From positions 1 through 20,152 of the IMG/VR virus record IMGVR_UViG_3300025131_000564: a DNA stretch of 20,152 nt. One strand, given 5' to 3'. Source of the stretch: a virus. Of this stretch, positions 1,502 through 20,028 are shown piece by piece. The stretch's first letter is position 1; every line of letters begins with the position of its first letter. The notes beneath the pieces are model-generated. The model ran no database searches and was not told the origin of the DNA. It worked only from the letters and a program-made list of their open reading frames with translations. A program made the translations under genes and the position numbers.

Positions 1502-3073
1502 TTACTCGAGTGGTGTCCACTCAACATCATAACCAACCAGTTCTATAGGGTCAGAACCGATCCATCTCGGCGCTATCGTCTCCGCGATTCTATTCACGTG
1601 AGTCATGAGCTGCTGATTCGTCCCACCCTCGTATCGGAGACCAGCGGAGTAGAGAAGACCAGTGTTATACTTCTGATCCGTCCCACCCGTCATCGCAGCA
1701 GACACCGCCGGCTGCTTCCCTTGATCCAGCTCCACTGAAAGATTGAAACTCTGACTCCCCGTCTTCTGCTTGATATAAGTCCGAAGCGCGACTATGTTCT
1801 TCCTACGATTTGGAGCCCCGAGGTCGTTCGGACTCATATCGACTTCCCACTCAAACTCACTCCCATTATCCGTCAGAATCCCCGACCCATTCCCCTTATG
1901 CACGAAACCATCGAGAGTGCCGAAGAAGTCCAGCTCGACATCTGAGATCACACTCCTCGCACCAAAGTTCATAACCTCTGTCAACTCATCAAACCAAAGA
2001 TCCCCGTTCTCCCAATCCCACACCATCACGAGATCATGCCCAGTGCTATTATCACTCGAAGAGACAAGGGTCCGAATCTGATGATCGCCTTCTCGAACCC
2101 ACGAGATCGCGTATTGCAGTCGGCTCTGCTTCAGCCCCCGCCAAGTATTCTGGTTGTGAAAGGTCGGCCACTCAATCGAATCATCCGGGCGAATAACGAA
2201 CGCCCCCTCTCTCGCTATTCCCCAAATGAATTCAGGGCGAGAGATAAACCCGAGCTTCGCAATCGGCTCAAACCCCCTCAACTCATTCATATACTCATAC
2301 TCAAATCGCCCGTGATTCACGACGACCTTACCCGAGTACGCCCCGTCCTCTTTCATCACCCAAAGGCGGCCGAAGTTATCAACCCCTCCGACGATCGGCG
2401 CGCCGCCCTCATAGATCTCAGTCCGATTCTGCGGTACCCACGTGCTAGTATCACTCTCCTTCGTTGTCCTATTAACGTCGCTCCAACGGATCCTCGTGAT
2501 CTCATCAACCCCACCCTCCGTCGGACGGAGCGCTACGAGCAACCCTTGATGGCTCACAATCCCACCCTTCACGAGCGTCCACGGCATCCCTGTCAGCGCC
2601 GCTACACTTGAAGGAGTAGTAAAATCCCCATCCCACGTTAGGATCTGGTCATTCCCGTTATCTATGAAAGTCTTCCTATCGAGATAAGCGAACTGACAAC
2701 GATTATTACCATCCCCACTCCACGTCGCTCCCCCAGTAATATCCTTCCTCGTAGTCCCGTCGTCAGTATAAATCGTCGTCGGAGTGACAACGAGCCGCTG
2801 AATCCCATAAGCGGGATAGTTGAACTGATTCAACCCTACGACGTTCTCACCACTCGTAAGCTGGGTCGAGTTGTAGAGTTCAAACCCCCGCCGAACATCT
2901 GCTGTCCCACGCTCCGAGATATTCATATCCCGCATCTTACGACAGTGCTCAGGAGTCAGGTTCTTCGTAGAATCGGGATACCGCCAGCGGCTCATTTGCC
3001 CACGAACGGCAAACATCTCAGTAGTCTGAGACTCTCCCTGCCCAATCCTATCTGCTGTGATGAATTCAGTCAT
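1502..3073 (-). CDS. Beta-propeller-like tail stabilisation / hub protein (P22 gp10-like)
   Basis: This 523-residue protein has many short beta-type segments with repeated Asp, Gly and Trp and phrases such as YTDDGTTRKDI, FIDNGNDQILTWDG, RIRWSDVN, GRLWVMKEDGAYS and LVMVWDWENGDLW. Such blade-like repeats are typical of the propeller-shaped stabilisation proteins that plug the head-tail junction of short-tailed phages. No signal peptide or membrane segment is seen. It starts at ATG 3073, overlapping the adaptor stop by one base (TGATG), and sits between adaptor and fibre, the expected place for a protein closing the tail and holding fibres. No catalytic motif was recognised. The virion tail-junction role is likely; equivalence to gp10 is inference from fold-like repeats and gene order. 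Confidence 0.65.
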   Translation of the reverse strand: MTEFITADRIGQGESQTTEMFAVRGQMSRWRYPDSTKNLTPEHCRKMRDMNISERGTADVRRGFELYNSTQLTSGENVVGLNQFNYPAYGIQRLVVTPTTIYTDDGTTRKDITGGATWSGDGNNRCQFAYLDRKTFIDNGNDQILTWDGDFTTPSSVAALTGMPWTLVKGGIVSHQGLLVALRPTEGGVDEITRIRWSDVNRTTKESDTSTWVPQNRTEIYEGGAPIVGGVDNFGRLWVMKEDGAYSGKVVVNHGRFEYEYMNELRGFEPIAKLGFISRPEFIWGIAREGAFVIRPDDSIEWPTFHNQNTWRGLKQSRLQYAISWVREGDHQIRTLVSSSDNSTGHDLVMVWDWENGDLWFDELTEVMNFGARSVISDVELDFFGTLDGFVHKGNGSGILTDNGSEFEWEVDMSPNDLGAPNRRKNIVALRTYIKQKTGSQSFNLSVELDQGKQPAVSAAMTGGTDQKYNTGLLYSAGLRYEGGTNQQLMTHVNRIAETIAPRWIGSDPIELVGYDVEWTPLE

Positions 3074-4053
3074 CAGAGGAAGTCAACTCCCTTAACCCGA
3101 GGCTGATCTTGGCGCTGCCGCCGTCCGCTCATATTCCACACATTCGCAAACACCAGCACCCTATTCGTCGGCTGCTCTCCATGATGAGCGAGGAACTCAT
3201 CGAACCGATCCTCCAGCGTCTTCCGCATATCCCGTGCAACCTGAAGCATACCAATTTTCGGGAAGAGGTCGTTAGCGATTCCACGCCAGATGAGATCATG
3301 AAACTCTTCTGGCAACTCCGGCCAATCCTCGTCTTCCACGAGAGGCGGTTTCCGCATCTCTGCGGAGATCGTATAGGTAAGCGCGGCATCAGGAATCGGA
3401 CCGAACTCGATCCATTCAAAGTCCGGGCTCTCCCACCAAGTCGGGATATGCGCGAGAACGTTCAGATCTGAATCCGCCGCGATGATCGTCCCAGCGAAAG
3501 TATTCCCACTCGCCGGAGCTTTCACGATCCTTTCAATCGTCGTGAAGCTAGCCGTAGATGAAGAAAGCGTCGTCCCATCCATCGTGACCTCTTCACGAAT
3601 CATCCGACCGTTCGCATCGAATCCTGTAATCACGCAGATGTAGTTCGACCCATCATCTCCGGTCTCCGTACTCACGAGAGAGATAACCCCCGCCGTCTGT
3701 GGTTGCTTCTCGACCCCAAATGTCCCAAAGGGCCGCGCTCTATCCGGCGTCCCAGTTTCCGTCTTACCCGGATCGTCCTTGATAAACTGCTGCTGTGTTA
3801 CATCATACAGCACACGTTTATTTGTCGTATCCTCAATCAACACGATCTTTCTTACATTAAAGGGCATTCCGTACTTTGCAGTATCTGCCACTGTCGTAAG
3901 AGAAAACTCTCGTGTCTCATGATTAGTCTTAGTCAACATCATGAGTCGCTGATATACAGCATTCCCACTCATCTTGACTAGGTCTTCAAACTCACCCGCT
4001 TCAGGTAGACCAGCGAGTTCGTGAACCCGCGATATGATACTACCCCATCTCAT
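3073..4053 (-). CDS. Head-tail adaptor / connector protein (gp4-like)
   Basis: The product has 326 residues. The N-terminus (about 1-60) is helical and resembles phage adaptors that begin with a short helix then LAGLPEAGEFEDLVKMSGNAVYQRL. A beta-rich middle (about 115-220) contains GVISLVSTETGDDGS, ICVITGFDANGRMIREEVTMDG and SFTTIERIVK, and looks like an inserted Ig-like or beta-sandwich domain. A C-terminal helical segment follows, PELPEEFHDLIWRG then ARDMRKTLEDRFDEFLAHHG, as in adaptors that ring the portal. It starts at ATG 4053 in an ATGA overlap with the upstream stop. Its position between head genes and the stabilisation-like protein supports the call. The central beta insert makes it longer than a minimal adaptor. 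Function is inferred from order and overall pattern. Confidence 0.6.
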   Translation of the reverse strand: MRWGSIISRVHELAGLPEAGEFEDLVKMSGNAVYQRLMMLTKTNHETREFSLTTVADTAKYGMPFNVRKIVLIEDTTNKRVLYDVTQQQFIKDDPGKTETGTPDRARPFGTFGVEKQPQTAGVISLVSTETGDDGSNYICVITGFDANGRMIREEVTMDGTTLSSSTASFTTIERIVKAPASGNTFAGTIIAADSDLNVLAHIPTWWESPDFEWIEFGPIPDAALTYTISAEMRKPPLVEDEDWPELPEEFHDLIWRGIANDLFPKIGMLQVARDMRKTLEDRFDEFLAHHGEQPTNRVLVFANVWNMSGRRQRQDQPRVKGVDFL

Positions 4054-4881: not shown

Positions 4882-5205
4882 TTATGGAATGGTAAATCCG
4901 CACATATTGACCTGTGCGTCTGAATCACTATTAGCGAGTACGAGATTTGCTGCTACACCAGGTGCACAAGGCCAAGTCCCCGGTGGAATCTTAAAGGCAA
5001 TTCCTTCCGCTGAGACATCAACTTTCCACTCAGCCAAAACAGTCGAGCCTCCCCTAAGCTGAAGAGTTGCATCTTCATCTACGTGGCCCGACACATGCGT
5101 TACAACATGAGCCTTTCCAGAAACTGCAGCTTTCGTCGCAGTTGCTCCACTATCCGTTCCGGCGGCCGTTGCACTCCAGCCCCCACTCATTACCTCAGAT
5201 ATCAT
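4882..5205 (-). CDS. Small beta-rich probable virion protein
   Basis: The product has 107 residues and starts at ATG 5205, with GGAG about nine bases upstream; a second in-frame ATG five codons later is possible. The sequence alternates short hydrophobic and Gly/Asp/Ser segments: KAAVSGKAHVVTHVSGHVD, ATLQLRGGSTVLAEWKVDV, IAFKIPPGTWPCAPG, ANLVLANSD and VNMCGFTIP. This reads as one beta-sandwich domain of the kind seen in small capsid decoration or tail-associated phage proteins. It has no signal peptide. Fourteen bases separate it from the next gene. The specific role is inferred only from fold-like pattern and location; it could be a spike, decoration or adhesion domain. Confidence 0.6.
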   Translation of the reverse strand: MISEVMSGGWSATAAGTDSGATATKAAVSGKAHVVTHVSGHVDEDATLQLRGGSTVLAEWKVDVSAEGIAFKIPPGTWPCAPGVAANLVLANSDSDAQVNMCGFTIP

Positions 5206-5232: not shown

Positions 5233-6285
5233 TCATCCTACGACTCCCTCTTCAGACTCTTCTGACGCTGCCACCTCAACTCCCACATCTCGCCAACTCT
5301 CGTCCACCTTGGAATCCACCCCATTGTTATTGGAGTGGATACCCGTAGCTTCCGAGTTGTGTGCAAATTGTTCTTTACTTCTGGACATATCTTCGCAGAT
5401 TCTTGCAAGTCTGTGTGCATAGGTATGCTCCGCCCTCACCTTTCGATGCCCCGTCCTCGCGATCAATTCCCGCTGCATAGGATTATCCAAACACCATTGC
5501 ACCGCACCGACAGCCTCATCCTCACCCTCGTATCCTACGAAGTGCACTCCCTCCTCAAACCCTAATTCTTTCCACCCTATAACATCTCGATTCGTGACGA
5601 GGCAAGTCCCATAACTCATCACCTCGAAAAACCGCATGTTTAGGTCATTCTTAATGCTGATGTTGAAACCAGTCCTGCCGCGCAAGTATCGAATCGCGGC
5701 CTCTTGGAAAAAACAATTCGTGTTATACCAGAAACTATCTACAGCTCCGAACACCGTATCGAGATAATCAACTCGATTATTCCCAACCCCGTCCGCGCCA
5801 TCATTCAGAAACCCTACAAAAACCACATCATACTCTTGACGTAGCCCCGCAGTCCCAGTGATACTATGATAAGCGGGAGAAGTTCTCAACTCTCCAAAGC
5901 TCGGATCGACGTTCGGATGGCAAGCTAACGGAAGCCAATGAGCATTAATCCCACTCTTTGACATCTCCTCCGCGCCATCTTGTTGAGCACAGTAGACGAT
6001 ATCAAACTTCTCCGCCCAATTCTTCCTTGTGTCATATCCCAAGTGCGTGTCAACCATCCATGCTGCATTTGGTCCGGGCAAGTCCATAGGTATATCATCA
6101 CGACCATCATCAATAAAGAGGTGAAAATCGTGCTCTGTCATCTCTTCCGCCGGAGTTGGTCGACGATACTTCACGCCGCCATTCTCTCGCCCTTGATGCC
6201 GACAATAAGCATCCCACATTCTTCGAGGAGTCCCATTATCACGGATATCACAATTATAGTGGAATCCAATCGACGGGAAAATCAT
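5233..6285 (-). CDS. CgeB-like glycosyltransferase
   Basis: The product is about 350 residues if started at ATG 6285, which overlaps the upstream stop as ATGA; a longer in-frame start at 6372 would overlap the neighbour deeply and is less likely. The C-terminal half carries the hallmark of CgeB/GT-B type glycosyltransferases: NMRFFEVMSYGTCLVTN, then WKELGFEEGVHFVGY and a helical RTGHRKVRAEHTYAHRL, which resembles the nucleotide-sugar binding half of Glyco_trans_1_2 proteins. The N-terminal half has DLPGPNAAWMVDTH and KFDIVYCAQQDG, also typical. It likely transfers a sugar from an activated donor to a virion protein, phage DNA or host glycan. The last ~45 residues are hydrophilic and may be disordered. 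It is the last of three linked glycosyltransferases. Confidence 0.75.
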   Translation of the reverse strand: MIFPSIGFHYNCDIRDNGTPRRMWDAYCRHQGRENGGVKYRRPTPAEEMTEHDFHLFIDDGRDDIPMDLPGPNAAWMVDTHLGYDTRKNWAEKFDIVYCAQQDGAEEMSKSGINAHWLPLACHPNVDPSFGELRTSPAYHSITGTAGLRQEYDVVFVGFLNDGADGVGNNRVDYLDTVFGAVDSFWYNTNCFFQEAAIRYLRGRTGFNISIKNDLNMRFFEVMSYGTCLVTNRDVIGWKELGFEEGVHFVGYEGEDEAVGAVQWCLDNPMQRELIARTGHRKVRAEHTYAHRLARICEDMSRSKEQFAHNSEATGIHSNNNGVDSKVDESWRDVGVEVAASEESEEGVVG

Positions 6286-7070
6286 GACGCCACCTCCACC
6301 CCAAACGTCGCAGGTGCGGGCACCGTCGTCCGAAGATCCTCGTAGATGCAGAAAGAAAACGCTTCTATACACTCCTTCAAGCTATGTTTCGCGGCTATTG
6401 CATTCCGCACAGCTTCTTGATGATCCACCCCGTCATAATACTCTCCGAAAGCGCGTCTACCGCTCTGCTGCCCGAGATGATGCAGGAAAGCTCGTTTATC
6501 CACCCGCACACTTTTTCCAGCCTGTCGTGCACGAATGCACAAGTCTATATCATCCCCACCTGGAAGAGTCTCATCCAACCCTCCAAGCTCCTTCAGAAAG
6601 CTTGTTCGACCCACTATACAAACCCCCATAATCACAGAGACTGAAAAGCTAAGCGCCGTCGAAGCATTAATCGCTTGATGCCCCGCAATGAAATCACTCG
6701 CCGGCCCCACCAATCCCACCGAATCATCTGAGAAATGACTTGTCAACTTTTGCCAAAACCCCATATCATAGAGATCCCGAATATCCGGTATGAACATAAC
6801 GTCATCGTTCATCATACAGAAGAGCGGAGTATCACATCTCTCCAGCGCGTAATTAATCCCACCCATCCAACCGAGGTTCTGCCCCGGATCGACGTAGTGG
6901 ATATAATTAGGCCAATCCTTAGAGTTCTCCGCCATACTCGCGTCCGACCCGTTATCTACAATCATAACTTGATACGGAAACCTAGTATAATTTATCAACG
7001 TAGTGATGCAATCTGAGAGCTGTGACATATTATGCCACGTCGGGATAGCTATCGTCAGAGTCGGATTCAT
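6282..7070 (-). CDS. GT2-family (GT-A fold) glycosyltransferase
   Basis: The product has 262 residues and starts at ATG 7070 in an ATGA overlap. It opens with the family signature LTIAIPTWHNMSQLSDCITTL, followed by MIVDNGSD (about 36-43), NLGWMGGIN (65-73), the metal-binding NDD in CMMNDDV (88-91) and GGLDETLPGGDDIDLCIRA, where the acidic cluster normally provides the catalytic base. This is the full core of an inverting GT2 enzyme such as rhamnosyl- or glucosyltransferases. It has no membrane segment, so it should act in the cytoplasm with a nucleotide-sugar donor. The linked partners suggest that two or three sugars are added in sequence. The acceptor cannot be told from sequence. Confidence 0.88.
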   Translation of the reverse strand: MNPTLTIAIPTWHNMSQLSDCITTLINYTRFPYQVMIVDNGSDASMAENSKDWPNYIHYVDPGQNLGWMGGINYALERCDTPLFCMMNDDVMFIPDIRDLYDMGFWQKLTSHFSDDSVGLVGPASDFIAGHQAINASTALSFSVSVIMGVCIVGRTSFLKELGGLDETLPGGDDIDLCIRARQAGKSVRVDKRAFLHHLGQQSGRRAFGEYYDGVDHQEAVRNAIAAKHSLKECIEAFSFCIYEDLRTTVPAPATFGVEVAS

Positions 7071-7909
7071 AGCGGAGTCACCTCAGACAAGGTGCCCCAA
7101 TTAAACTCATAATCCTCATTCCGCTCCATCCGCGTCTTCCAGTACATCTCATCATCACACCAAACCGTGTCATGGCACTTATGCTGAGCTACCAAACCTG
7201 AGTCAACGAATCTTCCAATCCCTGCCTCAGCCGCCCTCGCACAGAAGAACCAATCCTCGCCCGCACCAGTACTCTTATACCAAGGCTGAGGCAGAGTCCG
7301 AAACACACCAACATCCACCAAGGACACCGCACCGCCACTCGCCAACCACCCCTCAATATGCTCATCAGAAATCAAAGTATCTTTCGGATAATCGAAGAGC
7401 GGGTCGCTACGCTCATAGCACTTATCCCCATTCTCTTCAGGCATCATCTTCACTCCGAACACTGCCGGATAGATCGGGTCACGGGCAGTAAATGCTAGCG
7501 CAGAGATGATAGGCTTCTGATGCCGCCAGAGACGAAGGAAAGAAGACATCGGGAACTTCATGTCTGCATCCCAGCTCATAAGATAATCCGCTCCAGAAAC
7601 CACACAATGCTCTGCAATCCGCTCCCTCGCCAATCCCACAAGAGAAGTCCGAGAATAGTCACACAAGCCTAATTGTAACAATCCCAACCTCTCATAATCT
7701 TCTACAGTCGGCTCAGCCTCTACCTCTCCTGTCAATGGCGGCAATTCCAACGCATCGAACCTTTCAGCCCCAATAGCCTTACGAAGGATTGTTCTCTCAG
7801 AAAGCCCTCCGAGATAAGATACGAAACCGAGATAATCCTTCACTGTCGTATCATCCGGCCCATCATACCAAGGAAGTCCAATCATCAAGAAAGTCTTTTT
7901 ATCACTCAC
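7067..7909 (-). CDS. GT-A type glycosyltransferase with DxD motif
   Basis: The product is 280 residues. The start is GTG at 7909 with AAGGAG eight bases upstream, overlapping the upstream stop by eight bases. The N-terminus (FLMIGLPWYDG) resembles the first strand of a GT-A fold. GADYLMSWDADMKFP (about 107-120) contains the metal- and nucleotide-sugar-binding Asp-Ala-Asp, and GAGEDWFFCARAAEAG (about 215-230) gives the acidic ED seen before the catalytic region. A later His (QHKCHD, about 243) matches the usual C-terminal metal ligand. Similar enzymes occur in phage structural gene clusters. It probably glycosylates in the cytoplasm with the next two genes. The donor and acceptor are unknown. 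Confidence 0.78.
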   Translation of the reverse strand: MSDKKTFLMIGLPWYDGPDDTTVKDYLGFVSYLGGLSERTILRKAIGAERFDALELPPLTGEVEAEPTVEDYERLGLLQLGLCDYSRTSLVGLARERIAEHCVVSGADYLMSWDADMKFPMSSFLRLWRHQKPIISALAFTARDPIYPAVFGVKMMPEENGDKCYERSDPLFDYPKDTLISDEHIEGWLASGGAVSLVDVGVFRTLPQPWYKSTGAGEDWFFCARAAEAGIGRFVDSGLVAQHKCHDTVWCDDEMYWKTRMERNEDYEFNWGTLSEVTPL

Positions 7910-8243
7910 CGTCTTCGCTCCTTATAAGGTCATATTTGAGAGCTATCGCCTCTTCGACAGTCCCACCAGCAGCCACTACAAACCTATGCCCCTCGTGGTT
8001 CGCTCTCTGCTCTTTTTTATCGCGCTTCCATACCAATGTTCCGCAGTTATTACACCTCAACAACTTATCATTGCTGTCATCGCGGCCGTCGTGTGGAGTG
8101 AAGTCTGGTTCTATCCCAGTCTTATAATACGCCACTACTTCCTTCCGCATGAGCGTTTTACGTTCCTCACGAGAGAGGGAAGGAGGAGCCGAAGCCCCTC
8201 CCACCCAACCCGTGATCCGTCTAAAGAGCCCGGATAAAAACAT
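7902..8243 (-). CDS. Small protein with Cys2-His2-like metal-binding motif
   Basis: I chose ATG 8243, giving 113 residues (MFLSGLFRRITGWVGG...), because the longer in-frame start would overlap the neighbour deeply; the chosen start still overlaps it by about 23 bases and has no clear Shine-Dalgarno, so translation may be coupled. Residues 1-20 are hydrophobic with arginines, perhaps an amphipathic helix. The middle contains CNNCG...NHEGH, that is Cys-x2-Cys-x15-His-x2-His, which could bind zinc. The family is not recognised. It lies directly before the first glycosyltransferase gene and may belong to that cassette. Metal binding is inference from residue spacing alone. Confidence 0.6.
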   Translation of the reverse strand: MFLSGLFRRITGWVGGASAPPSLSREERKTLMRKEVVAYYKTGIEPDFTPHDGRDDSNDKLLRCNNCGTLVWKRDKKEQRANHEGHRFVVAAGGTVEEAIALKYDLIRSEDGE

Positions 8244-8688
8244 GGTTGCCGTAAGACAAGCCACCAGTGAACATCCCGGCCATCGTGCCCAACGCCACAA
8301 CAGGACCGAACTTATCAGCCCCGACGGAGGTCATGCCGACAGAAGCTTCCAACGGATGCGGGCAAAGGCCCACACCAGGAGAAACTCCCTTCGCCGTAGT
8401 GTTCAGATTCACACCTAGGACACTGGCATGATACCCGTAAACCTGGGCCAGTCCAGTGTTATTATCTGCCAGGTCCTCATCCATGAGACCAACAAAGTTA
8501 CCAACTGCATCATCAACCAGCCCAGCACGAGCCGGAAGGCCAACTTCAGCAGTCGTAACCGAGGCGACATTTCCAGCCGCCGTAAACTTACTCACCGGCC
8601 AATGCGTCGTAAGAGTCGCACCCTGCCGGTTGATGATCGTGACCCAAACCTTATCTGGATCGTCACGATTGATCTGTTGGATAATCAT
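8221..8688 (-). CDS. Probable small virion protein (decoration or head-completion)
   Basis: The product has 155 residues and starts at ATG 8688 with GAGGAG about nine bases upstream. The sequence is low in charge and rich in Gly, Ala, Val and Thr, with WVTIINRQGATLTTHWPV, AEVGLPARAGLVDDAVGNFVGL, LAQVYGYHASVLGVNLNT and GPVVALGTMAGMFTGGLSYGNHVFIRAL. It has no signal peptide or catalytic motif. Low charge, beta-prone segments and a location two genes after the major capsid gene are typical of abundant capsid-associated proteins in phages whose head genes are followed by a cement protein. This is inference from context; no named family was recognised. Confidence 0.6.
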   Translation of the reverse strand: MIIQQINRDDPDKVWVTIINRQGATLTTHWPVSKFTAAGNVASVTTAEVGLPARAGLVDDAVGNFVGLMDEDLADNNTGLAQVYGYHASVLGVNLNTTAKGVSPGVGLCPHPLEASVGMTSVGADKFGPVVALGTMAGMFTGGLSYGNHVFIRAL

Positions 8689-8722: not shown

Positions 8723-9016
8723 TTAGACGAACACGCCTGTCCAGTTAAAAGTATCTGGTGCACCAGCATTCCCGTCGATGTGAACAGAGCCATTAGCTAC
8801 AGTTCCAGCAAAATCACTAGAGTTGATATGCAATCGCGGTGTAGCCACGTCTACATCATCAACATTAGAGTCTAGACTAAAACTGAGCCACGTCCCGCTC
8901 CCGAGAATCGCGGCAGTTCCCGCGGTACTATCAACCTCGATAGTACCAGAGATCTGCGTAGCATTCCCAATCGCCCTACGAGAAGCCGTGGTTACAGTGT
9001 AAGCTCCGCTAGCCAT
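8723..9016 (-). CDS. Small beta-rich capsid-associated protein
   Basis: The product has 97 residues with a strong ribosome site (GAGGAGGT) before ATG 9016, as expected for an abundantly made virion protein. It reads as alternating strands: ISGTIEVDSTAGTAAILG, TWLSFSLDSNVDDVDVATP, RLHINSSDFAGTVANGSVHIDG and FNWTGVFV. It begins 20 bases after the major capsid gene stops. Size, position and beta content fit a capsid decoration protein. The 107-residue gene at 4882-5205 has a comparable beta-rich look, although no alignable identity is obvious by eye. The function is not proven by any motif. Confidence 0.6.
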   Translation of the reverse strand: MASGAYTVTTASRRAIGNATQISGTIEVDSTAGTAAILGSGTWLSFSLDSNVDDVDVATPRLHINSSDFAGTVANGSVHIDGNAGAPDTFNWTGVFV

Positions 9017-9036: not shown

Positions 9037-10026
9037 TCAAGTAATCCCAGTCATCTTCCCGAGCTTACGGCGATTGTTCGTCCCCATATTACCCTGGAAG
9101 AGGATCTGAGCGGTGTAAGAGTCCTGGTTGACCGGACGCTGGAAACCTTCCGGAGCCATCGCAAGGTCAGCCTGCTTATGTACGAATAAGAAAATGTGGT
9201 TCGAGTTCAGCATGTAAAGCGTCTGCGCCTGGCAGTGCTCATCCCACTTAAACTCAGCACCACGGAACATCGGATTGATGCTCATCTCGCCCTTACCACC
9301 GCCACCAGCGTAGCGAATCGCGGGCTGAACAACAGCTTCAGCAATCTCGTGAATCGCCTGCGGGCAGAAGATAGCATCCGGAGCGCTACGCACACCAGCC
9401 GAGCCTTCCTGACAATCGTTGTGCAGAGTCCGGAGGTTTGGGAGGAGATTCACAGCGCCAGAACCAACCCCTGTGATAGCCTGGTTTTGCCAAGCGGTGT
9501 TGACTGAAGGATCGATATCAGCATACTCGTTCGCGGCCGTAGGATCGTCCGGCAGCATCGCCAGAAGACCAGTAACCTGCTTGGAGCTATTCGCTGAACC
9601 GTTCGAGAAAGCGTCAGTTGTCAGATTATCAGCAATCTCCAACTCGGCAGCGCGGATACGATCCTTAGCGAGGTCGCGGACTGCGCTCTCCCCACCATTC
9701 ACACGCTGTTCAAGACCAGAAATCACTGCGGCTGCGGACGCCTGCTTCCAGTTAAAGAAAGCAACTGTGCGACCGGGCTGCTGAGTGATATCGAGAACCT
9801 CATCACCCGAGTAGCGCTTGTAGTTCCCAGGACCTCTATGCAGCAGGCCCACTTTAATTCTATCACCGCCATTAACTTTGCGGATACGACTTCCACTACG
9901 CAACCAGTTAAGGAATGCGGTAGAAGTAAACACCTGATCGTGGAGCATTCCAGAGTCGATATACGCCATCAGCGTAGTCGAGAGAACATCTCCCCAATTA
10001 AGTGTAGGAGTGGCTTCGCCAGCCAT
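9037..10026 (-). CDS. Major capsid protein (HK97-fold expected)
   Basis: The product has 329 residues and starts at ATG 10026 seven bases after the scaffold stop, with AAAGGTAGGT as ribosome site. The N-terminal part (MAGEATPTLNWGDVLSTTLM..., then VFTSTAFLNWLRSGSRIRKVNGGDRIKVGLLH) resembles the N-arm and E-loop regions of phage coat proteins. The long helix QRVNGGESAVRDLAKDRIRAAELEIADNL fits the spine helix. A domain with DAIFCPQAIHEIAEAV and NPMFRGAEFKWDEHCQAQTLYMLN, ending in a beta-rich C-terminus, follows as in the P and A domains. The order portal, scaffold, this gene, decoration gene is the classic head module. No protease gene is seen nearby, so maturation may not need N-terminal cleavage. 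Confidence 0.87.
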   Translation of the reverse strand: MAGEATPTLNWGDVLSTTLMAYIDSGMLHDQVFTSTAFLNWLRSGSRIRKVNGGDRIKVGLLHRGPGNYKRYSGDEVLDITQQPGRTVAFFNWKQASAAAVISGLEQRVNGGESAVRDLAKDRIRAAELEIADNLTTDAFSNGSANSSKQVTGLLAMLPDDPTAANEYADIDPSVNTAWQNQAITGVGSGAVNLLPNLRTLHNDCQEGSAGVRSAPDAIFCPQAIHEIAEAVVQPAIRYAGGGGKGEMSINPMFRGAEFKWDEHCQAQTLYMLNSNHIFLFVHKQADLAMAPEGFQRPVNQDSYTAQILFQGNMGTNNRRKLGKMTGIT

Positions 10027-11072: not shown

Positions 11073-11597
11073 TTACTTTGTAGCTTCTCTTGCCGCTTTG
11101 AGCGTCAGGTTCTCAAAAGCTTTCTTTGCAGCGACTGGATCACCCGGAGTATCAGCCTCAAGGTCTGAGAAACTCATATCCTCAGAATTTCCAGCCTTGT
11201 CAACCAATGACACGTCAAAGTCATCATACTCGGCATTCACCTCCACCATCGGGGTATCATGGCGGGCATCCTTAAGAGGACGCTTTCCAATCTGCGAACC
11301 GTTCGGGAGTTTCTTATCGAACAGTCTCGCGCCGCCCTCCTTATCTCCCGCCTCAACCAAACCCCTCTTCTTCAGCTCTTTCGCCTTCTGCTCTGCAGTA
11401 TAAATATTCACCCCGAGAGCCTCGTCCCAATAAGGCTCGAAAGTCGACATCCCCCTTGCAGCCTCTACTGGAAACATACGCCGCTTGAGCGTATTGCATC
11501 CTGAGCAAGAAACCTCTAGAGAATCTCGCACTCTAAACGGGACTACTACTTCCTCAGAGTCTCCACACGCAGGACAGACGAAATCATATTTAGCCAT
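11073..11597 (-). CDS. FmdB-type zinc-ribbon protein
   Basis: Started at ATG 11597 (MAKYDFVC), two bases after the upstream stop, this gives 174 residues; a longer start inside the previous gene is less likely. The N-terminal ~45 residues are a zinc ribbon with Cys8, Cys11, Cys31 and Cys34 (CPACG...CSGC) and match the layout of the FmdB regulatory-type ribbon, which begins M-x-x-Y-D/E-F/Y-x-C. The remainder is charged and probably partly disordered (AEQKAKELKKRG, EYDDFDVSLVDKAGN). FmdB-like ribbons are frequent in phage structural operons but their role is unclear. Position between the 626-residue protein and the scaffold suggests an assembly or capsid-internal role rather than transcription control. 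Confidence 0.7.
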   Translation of the reverse strand: MAKYDFVCPACGDSEEVVVPFRVRDSLEVSCSGCNTLKRRMFPVEAARGMSTFEPYWDEALGVNIYTAEQKAKELKKRGLVEAGDKEGGARLFDKKLPNGSQIGKRPLKDARHDTPMVEVNAEYDDFDVSLVDKAGNSEDMSFSDLEADTPGDPVAAKKAFENLTLKAAREATK

Positions 11598-11598
11598 T

Positions 11599-13479
11599 TT
11601 AGTACCCCAACCATTCGAGGAGCTTCCTGATGGAGACTGTTGAAGTCCCCTTGTAGAGCGCATCAAACTCCGCCCGCTTTTCCGCGTTGAGAATCTTCCC
11701 CTCGTTATCCAACCGTATAATGGTAGTCGGATGAACTTTCAGAAGCTTCCTCGCCTGACTCTTCGTAAGAGCCGGAGCATCATCTGGAATCCCCGCCTTG
11801 CGGAATAGCTTGAGAGTATCATTACTGATAAGGCCATTCTCTACAAGATCAAAAAGATCCTCAGATGGAATCCCCGCCCTACCTGACGTAGGCCTTCGAA
11901 GCACTAGCCTCCGAAGCTCTATCTCTGCCTCATGAATCTCTTTCCGCAGAGATTCAGCCAACTCCTTATTATCCTTACTCTTCAGCAGCTCTGCCCGAAG
12001 CTCGTTAATCTCACGCTCCAGATTCCCGATCTTAGCCCCATCGATGAACTTCGGAGCTGTTGTCGGTTTCGGCAATGTTCCACCGCTCACCTTCACCTTA
12101 CCCCACTCCACCCAATCCTTCAGGAAGCTAGTATCCGTCGGAGTTAGCGGAGTCCCATCCTGCAGCATCTGATACAACTGCTTCGCCTCATCAGAGCCAT
12201 TCCGCATAGCGTCGAGAGCCGCAGAAGTGACTGTATCGTCAGCCTTCCCAGCACTCTTAAAGGCGGCAACGACCTGATCGCTGTGCAAGAGATCCACCAT
12301 CGCATCGCTCGCGGCAGATATCGAAAGCCTCAGCGCCTCCTTAAACCCGTTCAACTGCTCCTCCATGCCATCCATATCAACTTGGAGACCTTCATGTACT
12401 TCCGGGTACTCTTTCAGGAACTTAAGCTCTTCCTCACTGTCCTTGATCAACTGCCGTAAAACATCTTCCGGAAGGTCTTTCATCTTCCGGCCATAGACCT
12501 CAATCGCCTGCTGGCCCTTCAACTTCATCGTCTGAATCTCGTCGAAAGATTCTCCGATCAAGTCGAAAGCCTTCTCCAGATCCGCGTCGAGAGAGCTATT
12601 CGCCTCATCAATCCCACCCAAAGCATCATCTGTCGCCTGGGGAACCTTAGCCGCAGTCGACCCACTGCCCTTCTGCTTCTTCAACGCCTCTTCCGCACCA
12701 TTCTCCAACCCATCCAGAATCTTCTGCTGCTCCTCAGAAGTCTCCCTCGATACGTTCTTTATAATTCGAAGGAAGTCCTCAAGCGCCTCAGACGTTGAAG
12801 AATCAAAGAGACTCTTAGACCTCGCTATCAGGGCTTCTGGAGAACCCGCGATGATATTGCGAACATCATCGAGAAGAGCCTGCCCAGGAGTCGCACCAAA
12901 AGCCGCTCCTTGACTCGCTACATCCGCTGAGAGGTCAATCGCTTCATCCGTCGCGTCAGGAATTATAGCTTTCTTAGACCCTTCTAGGTCTAAATACCAC
13001 GACTTTCCCTTCCCAGGCTTGTCGGGAAAGTCAAGCCGCTTCGTGCCCCCCGTTGTCGGGAAAACCTCTGATAGCATATCCCCGATTCGTCGACTCAGCC
13101 TTCTCGCGCCGCCAGACCCACTCCCCCCCATCCCGATTGGACCAACGATTCCAAGCACAGGATTCATCGACGGGGGGATAGATTCTGCAACCTGAAGGGC
13201 GGCATCAATCCCAGTCCCGAGCGCGCCTTGCACAGCCTGATCCACTCCGCGCACACCCTCAGCCGCGATCTTAGCCGGACCTACAAAGTGACGATCTATA
13301 CTCTGCGCTGTCACATCCAGAGCAATTCCGAGCGCTTTCGCTAACGTCTTCTCGACCGCTGAGAGCGTCCCACCAGCCGCGATCTTCTGCTCAAGCTGTG
13401 TCCGCAACTCCACGTTCGTCGCATCGGGCGAAGCGCTAGTCGCCGCCGGCACGTTCGTTTTTAACGCCTCAACTGGCAT
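11599..13479 (-). CDS. Large helical protein with excisionase-like C-terminus, possible internal/ejection protein
   Basis: The product has 626 residues and starts at ATG 13479 in a TAATG overlap. No complete family is recognised. Residues ~25-85 are helical. Residues ~86-125 are Gly-rich and hydrophobic (GALGTGIDAALQV, NPVLGIVGPIGMGGSGSGG), which could insert in or contact membrane or DNA. Residues ~225-400 and 500-550 are long charged helices with coiled-coil character (LDGLENGAEEALKKQKG, GNLEREINELRAELLKSKD). The last ~56 residues (LTKSQARKLLKVHPTTIIRLDNEG..., ending RKLLEWLGY) look like a winged helix-turn-helix of the excisionase/MerR type. The place just after the portal fits an internal head or ejection protein. 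Function is inference. Confidence 0.6.
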   Translation of the reverse strand: MPVEALKTNVPAATSASPDATNVELRTQLEQKIAAGGTLSAVEKTLAKALGIALDVTAQSIDRHFVGPAKIAAEGVRGVDQAVQGALGTGIDAALQVAESIPPSMNPVLGIVGPIGMGGSGSGGARRLSRRIGDMLSEVFPTTGGTKRLDFPDKPGKGKSWYLDLEGSKKAIIPDATDEAIDLSADVASQGAAFGATPGQALLDDVRNIIAGSPEALIARSKSLFDSSTSEALEDFLRIIKNVSRETSEEQQKILDGLENGAEEALKKQKGSGSTAAKVPQATDDALGGIDEANSSLDADLEKAFDLIGESFDEIQTMKLKGQQAIEVYGRKMKDLPEDVLRQLIKDSEEELKFLKEYPEVHEGLQVDMDGMEEQLNGFKEALRLSISAASDAMVDLLHSDQVVAAFKSAGKADDTVTSAALDAMRNGSDEAKQLYQMLQDGTPLTPTDTSFLKDWVEWGKVKVSGGTLPKPTTAPKFIDGAKIGNLEREINELRAELLKSKDNKELAESLRKEIHEAEIELRRLVLRRPTSGRAGIPSEDLFDLVENGLISNDTLKLFRKAGIPDDAPALTKSQARKLLKVHPTTIIRLDNEGKILNAEKRAEFDALYKGTSTVSIRKLLEWLGY

Positions 13480-13793
13480 TAATAAAACCCCATTGGGTGA
13501 TCTTCCTCACCACTCCGTACTCGCTCCATCTCTTTCGCCAGACGCTCTAAGCGTCCTTTCCGCTGAAGCTTACGAGCCTTTGCGTGGAGCTTAGCCACCT
13601 CCCCATCCTTCATCTTCGTCTTGCCATTCCGCACTTGCGAGAGGCGCATCTCTACGACAGCGAGTTTATCCTGCACCTCGATATCCTTCGACTCCTCTTC
13701 GCCCTTCTCACCCTTCTCACCCTTCTCGCCTTTAATTGTAGCGAGAAGTTCCTCTACCCCGTCGGCGAACTTAACCATACTTTCTTCAGGCAT
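13479..13793 (-). CDS. Small charged protein with collagen-like repeat
   Basis: The product has 104 residues. ATG 13793 follows the portal stop by two bases and its ribosome site GGAG overlaps the end of the portal gene. Residues ~21-33 are KGEKGEKGEKGEE, four Gly-Glu-Lys triplets as in collagen-like segments of phage proteins. The remainder (IEVQDKLAVVEMRLSQVR, KLHAKARKLQRKGRLERLAKEMERVR) is a strongly charged helix, likely a coiled coil, then a short tail. The family is not recognised. Collagen-like repeats plus coiled coil can drive trimer formation, so a small structural or portal-associated protein is conceivable. The next gene overlaps its stop (TAATG). Confidence 0.7.
   Translation of the reverse strand: MPEESMVKFADGVEELLATIKGEKGEKGEKGEEESKDIEVQDKLAVVEMRLSQVRNGKTKMKDGEVAKLHAKARKLQRKGRLERLAKEMERVRSGEEDHPMGFY
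13702..13729. repeat. Nine-base tandem repeat coding Gly-Glu-Lys
   Basis: The plus strand reads cccttctca, cccttctca, cccttctcg and then cc, a 9-base period with one substitution. It keeps frame, so copy-number change would add or remove Gly-Glu-Lys triplets without frameshift. Confidence 0.85.
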
Positions 13794-15898: not shown

Positions 15899-17508
15899 TA
15901 GGCTGGCAGCTCCTCAAAAACTTCGGCTGCGAGGGTCTGAGAGTTATGCACATTCTGCACAATGCTAGGTTCGGGTGAGAACGGAGCAACTTTTCCAATC
16001 CTCGTACCGCGACTCCGAAGTACTCTCCTCTGCACCATCTCGTCGAAAGTAAGATTCCGTGGAGCCTCAGGCTTCGCCTCTACAACTGCCCCTTCGCCGC
16101 GATTAATCTTAACGATCATCCGACAGAGAAGCGCACCCGCGTCAACCATGTCATCATTTTTACCACGCGGGAAGCGAACAAGCTCGTCGATGAAATCGCC
16201 TACCCAGGGAGCGCCCTTCGGAAGAAAGATTTTTCCCGTCTGAGCAAGCCCGGCAAATGTCGCTGCTCGTGAAACCTTATTCGCAATGCTGGGAAATGGT
16301 CGGCGAGTAACATAAAGATCCTCTTCCTGCATCCTACGCCGAATAAACGGTCCCACGCCTTTCAGAATCGCCCCAGGCTCCTCCGCCCACGCATTAGGAC
16401 TTCGCTGCCTCATAAGCTCTAAAAGGGCATCCACCCATACGGCAGTATCACATTGACGGCGAAACATATCAGTAAAATAGATATTGCCTACACTATCACA
16501 ACCGCCGACAAGGTGAACGCTATAATCACCTCGATCCTCAGACGTCGCATAGTCGCTTGCGCCATAGAAGCTCAGAGCGCTCGGAAGTTCATCATACTCA
16601 CCGAACCAATCAGGGTCAAAAACATCTCCCTCGTTCGGAACAGGCTGCTGCTGATGGAGAGCTATAAACTGCATAGGATTCTCATCACGGATAGCATGAA
16701 GCTCCTTGATACTCCTCCATGCTGGTAGCAATGCTTCACCTTCTGATCGACCGAGGGGGTCATTTGCAGTGGCTATAGAAGGGACTTCTAGAACGTCCCA
16801 ATCCCCCTGACGCTTAACCCTCCCACCGAGGTCATCGTCATACCATCGCTGCATGATTAAAATGACCGCCCCCGGACCATTCTTATACGGCCTTAGGCGA
16901 TTCAGGAGAACTGAAGTATACCAGTTCCAGAGCATCTCTCTATGAGCAGCAGAGGAAGCCTGCTCCCAATCTTTCGTCGGGTCATCGATGATAGCGATAT
17001 GGGCGTGAAACCCAATAAGGCCACCACCAACACCTTCGGCCTTATACGTGCCGCCAGCCGTCGTCGCCCATTCATCTCGTGCCATCGCTTGCGGATCGAG
17101 TTTTACGCCAGGAAATATATTTCCGAAGCGGGGGTCTTTGATCCTGTCGCGAATGACTCGCCCGAAAGAGGCAGCAAGGTCTGCGTTATACGAGGCGTGG
17201 ATGAACTTTGTTCGGGGACTACGCCCCACGCACCATGCTGGAAAAAATCTGGAGACGAGTTCGGATTTTCCAGAACTCGGTGGTATAAATATGGCAAGTC
17301 TTCGACACGCACCACTCTCCACCTCCTCCAGCTTTTTCGCAATCAGCCTATGAACCGCATGACTCTCGTACATCTCGTCCATATAGCTCGCAAAGTCTAT
17401 CAGGCCGCGCTTTGCGCGAGACCGCTTCTGAAGCTCGGTAAGGATCTCCTGAGTACCGAAGTCCGCAGGTGCTTTCGGCCCCTCGACTAGTCCGAGATGT
17501 TCAGTCAT
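15898..17508 (-). CDS. terL: Terminase large subunit
   Basis: The product has 536 residues and starts at ATG 17508 in an ATGA overlap. The ATPase half has a Walker A of the terminase type, IPPSSGKSE (about 75-83), the adenine region before it (RRLAIF), Walker B IAIIDDP (171-177, acidic pair D175/D176) and the coupling motif ILIMQRW (216-222). The nuclease half has an RNase H-like set: Asp319 in GASDYAT, acidic residues in AEEPG (about 375-379) and DDMVDA (452-457), which should bind two metal ions. All key residues look intact. It packages DNA into the procapsid through the portal encoded next, with the small subunit two genes upstream. Confidence 0.95.
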   Translation of the reverse strand: MTEHLGLVEGPKAPADFGTQEILTELQKRSRAKRGLIDFASYMDEMYESHAVHRLIAKKLEEVESGACRRLAIFIPPSSGKSELVSRFFPAWCVGRSPRTKFIHASYNADLAASFGRVIRDRIKDPRFGNIFPGVKLDPQAMARDEWATTAGGTYKAEGVGGGLIGFHAHIAIIDDPTKDWEQASSAAHREMLWNWYTSVLLNRLRPYKNGPGAVILIMQRWYDDDLGGRVKRQGDWDVLEVPSIATANDPLGRSEGEALLPAWRSIKELHAIRDENPMQFIALHQQQPVPNEGDVFDPDWFGEYDELPSALSFYGASDYATSEDRGDYSVHLVGGCDSVGNIYFTDMFRRQCDTAVWVDALLELMRQRSPNAWAEEPGAILKGVGPFIRRRMQEEDLYVTRRPFPSIANKVSRAATFAGLAQTGKIFLPKGAPWVGDFIDELVRFPRGKNDDMVDAGALLCRMIVKINRGEGAVVEAKPEAPRNLTFDEMVQRRVLRSRGTRIGKVAPFSPEPSIVQNVHNSQTLAAEVFEELPA

Positions 17509-17693
17509 GCGGCTACGCCGTCCTCAGGCACGTAAACGTGATAGCTCTTACGATCGCCGCATTTCGGGCAGTTCCCATCAATGATCTCACGATGTTTCTC
17601 ACCAGTAATGTCCAAAACATCATCCAACTCTGCCATACTTCCCATCCACTTGAACTTACATTTAGAACAAGCCCAATGTCCGAACATGCTCAT
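17505..17693 (-). CDS. Small zinc-ribbon protein between terminase genes
   Basis: The product has 62 residues starting at ATG 17693 in an ATGA overlap with the preceding gene, and ending in an ATGA overlap with the large terminase. Cys9-x2-Cys12 (WACSKCKFKW) and Cys42-x2-Cys45 (GNCPKCGDRKSYHVY) make a complete four-cysteine zinc ribbon. The stretch between is polar. It has no other domain. Tight coupling to the large terminase suggests equal expression with packaging genes. Zinc ribbons of this size could bind nucleic acid or a protein partner such as the terminase or host RNA polymerase. The role is unknown. Confidence 0.78.
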   Translation of the reverse strand: MSMFGHWACSKCKFKWMGSMAELDDVLDITGEKHREIIDGNCPKCGDRKSYHVYVPEDGVAA

Positions 17694-18925: not shown

Positions 18926-19009
18926 CGGGCCTTTAAAATAAGAAAGAAAAAGCAAAAGGGGGAATCGCCTAAAACGAATGCTCTCTCCCTCCTTCGCCCC
19001 CCTCCCCTC
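18926..19009. other. Gene-free stretch: purine tract then pyrimidine tract
   Basis: No gene is seen here. The plus strand is nearly pure purine from about 18936 to 18964 and nearly pure pyrimidine from about 18981 to 19009, with a short mixed spacer. The two tracts could partly pair in single-stranded form. The adjoining bases 18814-18893 and 19096-19161 hold no gene or clear signal. Confidence 0.4.
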
Positions 19010-19095
19010 AAAATCCGTGCCGGGTTGTGGCACGAAAGCAAAATCCATGCCACCCCGCCCCCGCAAGATTCGTGCCGGGTTGTGGTACGAAAATT
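19010..19095. repeat. Three-unit repeat with hairpins between divergent promoters
   Basis: Units begin AAAATCCGTGCC (19010), AAAATCCATGCC (19040) and AAGATTCGTGCC (19065). Units one and three continue with GGGTTGT and then GGCACGAAA or GGTACGAAA, so CGTGCC pairs with GGCACG across a seven-base loop (19016-19034) and TTCGTGCC with GGTACGAA (19069-19091). Unit two lacks the second arm. The layout suggests regulator or terminase binding sites. Confidence 0.65.
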
Positions 19096-19918: not shown

Positions 19919-19942
19919 GGGGAGGAGGGAAACCTCCTCCCC
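19919..19942 (+). terminator. Hairpin A just after the plus-strand gene, GAAA loop
   Basis: Ten perfect pairs GGGGAGGAGG / CCTCCTCCCC enclose a GAAA (GNRA-type) tetraloop, starting eight bases after the stop codon. There is no U-tract, so intrinsic termination is uncertain; mRNA 3'-end protection or processing is equally possible. Confidence 0.55.
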
Positions 19943-19963
19943 GATCCTACTAATTGTTTAGAG

Positions 19964-19981
19964 ACCTTTTATGTTAAAGGT
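19964..19981 (+). repeat. Small hairpin in the downstream cluster
   Basis: ACCTTT (19964-19969) pairs with AAAGGT (19976-19981) across a six-base loop. It is short and may be chance, but it lies between the two strong GAAA-loop hairpins. Confidence 0.35.
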
Positions 19982-20002
19982 GTATCGACGCTAAGAACCT
20001 TC

Positions 20003-20028
20003 GGAGGGGGAGGGAAACCTCCTCTTCC
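20003..20028 (+). repeat. Hairpin B, second GAAA-loop hairpin related to A
   Basis: Eleven pairs GGAGGGGGAGG / CCTCCTCTTCC, two of them G-U, close on GAAA (20014-20017). Relative to hairpin A, several stem positions differ yet stay paired on the plus strand only, which suggests that the RNA form matters. Confidence 0.6.

Follow-up and report, generated by a model that had tools for sequence, protein, structure and literature searches.

The window, a 20,152-base stretch from an uncultured tailed phage (IMG/VR virus record IMGVR_UViG_3300025131_000564), carries a late operon on its minus strand that runs from terminase, portal, scaffold-like and capsid genes through a block of four genes to the adaptor and the tail genes. 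The block (5233–8243) encodes a small Cys/His protein and three unlike glycosyltransferases: a GT-A enzyme with a DxD motif, a GT2 enzyme and a CgeB-like GT-B enzyme. A sequence-only reading had named the same three types, and the open reading frames, Pfam matches and an AlphaFold model bear it out. In operon order, the features are:

9037..10026, minus strand: major capsid protein (phrog_9953, E 1.1e-48)
8723..9016, minus strand: small protein of the virion module, follows the capsid gene; alternative candidate acceptor (syntenic in relatives)
8221..8688, minus strand: predicted capsid decoration protein, candidate glycan acceptor (AlphaFold and VIA-align)
7902..8243, minus strand: small protein with CxxC...HxGH (Cys2-His2-like), first cassette gene (ORF calls, residue conservation)
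7067..7909, minus strand: GT-A glycosyltransferase with DxD (WDADM), GEDW and C-terminal His, GTG start (AlphaFold model)
6282..7070, minus strand: GT2 glycosyltransferase (PF13641, PF00535)
5233..6285, minus strand: CgeB-like GT-B glycosyltransferase (PF13524)
4882..5205, minus strand: small protein encoded after the cassette (synteny conserved in relatives)
3073..4053, minus strand: SU10-like adaptor protein, downstream flank (PF24175, 30.8 bits, cut-off 27)

The joins of 4–8 bases claimed from the sequence are present as overlaps of 8, 4 and 4 bases among the four minus-strand ORFs. The block does lie between capsid-associated genes and the adaptor: a decoration-type gene stands directly before it, and two small genes (4882–5205 and 4050 to about 4868) separate it from the SU10-like adaptor gene. 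Translation of the Cys/His ORF (8243–7902) could begin at the ATG at 8243, which gives a 23-nt overlap with the decoration gene, or at an ATG near 8150, in which case that overlap is lost. A family search (Pfam, PHROG) gave no match for the small protein at 8723–9016. No annotated phage matched the window closely at the DNA level, the window had no Rfam match, and no tRNA genes were found in the records scanned.

Profile searches and structure prediction supported all three enzyme assignments, Pfam for the GT2 and CgeB-like proteins and AlphaFold for the GT-A protein. The GT2 protein matched PF13641 at 50.1 bits (cut-off 27) and PF00535 at 45.2 bits (cut-off 23.3), and the C-terminal domain of the CgeB-like protein matched PF13524 at 70.2 bits, well over the cut-off of 25; the CgeB-like protein had no sequence match among solved structures and no tblastn match in annotated phages. 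The GT-A protein had no Pfam match and only a weak one to phrog_1574, but its AlphaFold model (mean pLDDT 93.3, 30 sequences) has a GT-A fold. VIA-align paired this model with STIV A197 (Z 16.3), human LH3 (16.1), COLGALT1 (13.7) and mimivirus R699 (13.3), and its nearest predicted viral structures were mostly phage glycosyltransferases. LH3, COLGALT1 and R699 share the fold over 177–191 residues at Z of about 13–16 and act on protein acceptors, whereas their identity to the window enzyme is 11–13%; with identities of only 9–16% among the solved matches, the substrate cannot be read from them. No lysyl hydroxylase was found. We also considered a collagen-like acceptor for such an enzyme and rejected it: a 104-aa ORF at 13482–13793 has a short collagen-like GEKGEKGEKGEE run (a GEK run), which is missing in relatives.

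Loss of catalytic residues had been named as grounds for refutation; alignment of about 30 sequences per enzyme instead showed invariant motifs. These are D114 and D116 (DxD), E218 and D219 (xED) and H243 (C-terminal His) in 30 GT-A sequences, D89, D90, D173 and D174 in 29 GT2 sequences, and the donor-side residues D59, G61, D63, R218 and E221 in 29 CgeB-like sequences. In the closest usable pairs dN/dS was about 0.04–0.08 for the three enzymes, with dN far below dS; the estimate is limited to these pairs, as saturation in many pairs makes dN/dS medians untrustworthy for the small proteins. No transmembrane segments were predicted in the window's enzymes, which by this measure look soluble. 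Many relatives have a methyltransferase fused to the C-terminus of GT2 that is absent from the window GT2, and one (L003) has a methyltransferase matching PF13489.

In the Cys/His protein, C64, C67, H83, G85 and H86 were invariant in 27/27 sequences, and from these residues the protein may bind zinc. Further small CxxC zinc-ribbon-like ORFs occur at 11076–11627 and 17508–17693 of the same virion operon, and the type recurs in the lineage.

Capsid, GT-A and CgeB queries against viral contigs supplied the relatives, whose gene order was mapped with HMMs built from the window and the first relatives. Scanning the viral contigs with one GT-A sequence gave no relatives, so alignments were needed. 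The common order was capsid, small protein, decoration-type protein, Cys/His protein, GT-A, GT2, CgeB, small proteins and adaptor. Including the window, 39 contigs had the full cassette together with both flanks, from decoration gene to adaptor; some of these contigs are near-identical. Additional GT2 or GT-A copies were noted in L019, L028 and L038. The Cys/His and GT-A genes overlapped or lay no more than 10 nt apart in 37/45 contigs, and the other two within-cassette junctions were as short in 49/51 and 45/57. The recurrence of gene order and short junctions across relatives shows that the arrangement is not due to chance. By contrast, the junction before the cassette, between the decoration and Cys/His genes, was short in only 4/43, which places the Cys/His protein within the coupled unit. 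Its short overlap with GT-A in most relatives, its invariant motif and the Zn-ribbon proteins of alternative cassettes (below) all favor the suggestion from the sequence that it is a cassette partner.

The sequence-only reading had proposed comparison with related genomes lacking the block. Some relatives hold an alternative cassette, and more distant ones have an empty slot. In L080–L086 (38–45% capsid identity) the flanks are kept and the slot holds a different cassette: a DDD-type GT-A-like protein, a separate Zn-ribbon protein and a Methyltransf_24 enzyme, joined in L081 by a GT2 and an NAD-dependent sugar epimerase (NDP-sugar type). In L081 and L085 the DDD-type GT-A-like protein has an internal Zn-ribbon-like insertion. 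More distant L087–L091 (35% capsid identity) have a small CxxC protein, GT-A, GT2 and CgeB, except that L089 ends after GT-A. At 25–30% identity (L092, L093, Mx9, ppBjS10J-1 and ctMlz233), no such genes lie between the capsid and adaptor genes. When the capsid protein was the only query, every contig that offered sufficient sequence and reached 35% identity or more had a cassette; this recruitment avoids bias from collecting relatives by enzyme similarity. In 14 long records there were one or two PF00535 matches per record, and those that could be placed were at the cassette. A DNA methylase (PF01555) was present in some records; by itself it does not call for glycosyltransferases.

Cassette distances follow those of the backbone (r 0.75–0.96), which points to mainly vertical inheritance of the CgeB-type cassette. 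Partial Mantel correlations that control for capsid distance were 0.21–0.49 between the decoration protein and the cassette, over 24 genomes. Under a fuller backbone control in 14 genomes the decoration–GT-A link vanished and the Cys/His link remained at 0.55. Co-inheritance of decoration protein and cassette beyond the backbone is therefore weak and depends on the control.

The gene next to the cassette, 8221–8688, yielded an AlphaFold model of pLDDT 76.7 whose fold matches phage capsid decoration proteins; the top matches were all capsid proteins. VIA-align gave a Z of 12.3 to the HFTV1 capsid-interface protein and values above 10 to capsid proteins of FCWL1 and T1, with further matches to XM1, Pam3, Sf11, TW1 and the phi29 head-fibre base. 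The HFTV1, T1, FCWL1, XM1, Pam3 and TW1 decoration proteins share its predicted fold at Z 8.9–12.3, although identity is just 9–16%, and tblastn found no match to it in annotated phages. Ser43 is invariant in 31/31 sequences, inside a variable low-confidence loop, and is a candidate glycan site only. No serine/threonine-rich tail was noticed on the candidate acceptors. Gene position by itself is no proof of substrate; we infer that the decoration protein is the likeliest acceptor, with the neighboring small proteins and the capsid protein as alternatives.

Proteins related to the window GT-A also occur near head genes in other phages. Those of phrog_1574 come after the capsid gene in the Manatee Spring phages and in Microcystis phage Mel-JY34, and vir323 has one between its head and tail genes. 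This head-region placement is similar to that of the window enzyme, although identity is about 27–31% over partial length; no CgeB-like partner was seen in these neighborhoods. In Synechococcus phage S-SCSM2R (L122, 5635–7224) a related GT-A sits elsewhere: it is two genes away from a 2OG-Fe(II) oxygenase, upstream of baseplate genes, a neighborhood that recalls hydroxylase and glycosyltransferase pairs.

In our interpretation the block is a translationally coupled cassette, expressed late, whose products glycosylate the virion itself, most likely on the decoration protein; we put the probability of this at roughly two in three. Since dozens of relatives keep the three enzymes with their small companion, or a different set, in the same slot, the virus probably sugar-coats its own particle. 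Virions assembling in the cytosol would be the setting. The metal-dependent GT-A would start the glycan by placing one sugar on a virion protein, and GT2 and the CgeB-like enzyme would lengthen it using nucleotide-sugars of the host. In relatives a methyltransferase, either fused or encoded separately, might cap a sugar. The product would be a short virion glycan, methylated in some cases. The CxxC/HxGH protein could serve as a structural or substrate-recognition partner, and the benefit may be shielding or altered adsorption. The acceptor, the order of action, the sugars and the benefit are those we infer.

Phage-encoded virion glycosylation, which the sequence-only reading had mentioned for some mycobacteriophages, is indeed described for Che8 (gp110), Corndog (gp38) and Myrna (Freeman et al. 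2023, as cited in PMC12363180 and PMC12619734). Those systems, like this one, use phage-encoded glycosyltransferases, whereas here a virion protein is only the probable target. In cluster F1 mycobacteriophages the enzymes are encoded towards the genome's 3' end (PMC11256854). Here a coupled unit of three enzyme types and a Cys/His protein adjoins the decoration gene, and relatives also have methyltransferases. What is new relative to the mycobacteriophage systems is the dedicated, exchangeable slot and the conserved metal-binding-type companion; we found no published account of this gene arrangement in the open-access literature. A bolder version, to which we give a rather low probability, is that the slot is dedicated to glycan cassettes whose CxxC-type companions deliver the enzymes to the decoration protein, diversifying the capsid glycan, possibly at Ser43. 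The exchangeable cassettes would then be of the CgeB type or the DDD-GT-A/methyltransferase/epimerase type, each with its own metal-binding companion.

Glycosylation of the virion need not fall on the head. Tail genes share the operon, and mycobacteriophage glycans are reported on capsid and tail tube alike (PMC12619734). But the slot adjoins the decoration gene rather than a fibre gene throughout the lineage, and in other phage groups GT-A comes after the capsid gene, so we regard a tail or fibre acceptor as rather unlikely. Less probable again is a role on phage DNA, with sugars added to a pre-modified base to evade restriction or other DNA-directed defence. Phage glycosyltransferases of that kind exist, and the GT2 protein has a match to TAGT (PF20691), but at 15.6 bits this does not reach the cut-off of 27.5 and is far below the generic GT2 matches. 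PF00303 (thymidylate-synthase-type) was absent from 14 partial records in which controls worked, and base-modifying hydroxylase families were absent among the Pfam matches of 63 other lineage proteins. A search of the partial records for PF12851 (TET) gave no matches, with its controls silent too, and is hence uninformative. The claim that virion rather than DNA is glycosylated fared unevenly: the virion side is favored by late-operon placement in the virion module, after a decoration-type protein, and the case against DNA draws on absences from partial records only.

The enzymes might instead alter a polysaccharide on the host surface, serving superinfection exclusion or release. GT2 does resemble polysaccharide enzymes, and phage glycosyltransferases that alter host serotype are known (cited in PMC12619734). 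We nonetheless consider it very improbable given the late operon position and the lack of predicted transmembrane segments in nearly all sequences. Scans of genome contigs with the CgeB and capsid queries yielded no provirus, and hence no sign of lysogenic conversion. Together, the missing thymidylate-synthase-type base modifier and the soluble-looking enzymes argue against DNA and host-surface targets.

Phage virion glycosylation has been documented in a few mycobacteriophages. If the cassette does act on the particle, the slot and the GT-A relatives in other head regions would suggest that sugar-coated particles are commoner among environmental phages than recognized; this work names a candidate acceptor gene and a small cassette.

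Two other features of the window were noted. A minus-strand frame with a tail-fibre-like look (1–1485) is open-ended, running off the left end. Beside the divergent right end are two 40-nt direct repeats (18998–19092 and 19921–20024), each with a hairpin (CGTGCC...GGCACG), and two copies of GGAGGAGGGAAACCTCCTC accompany them.
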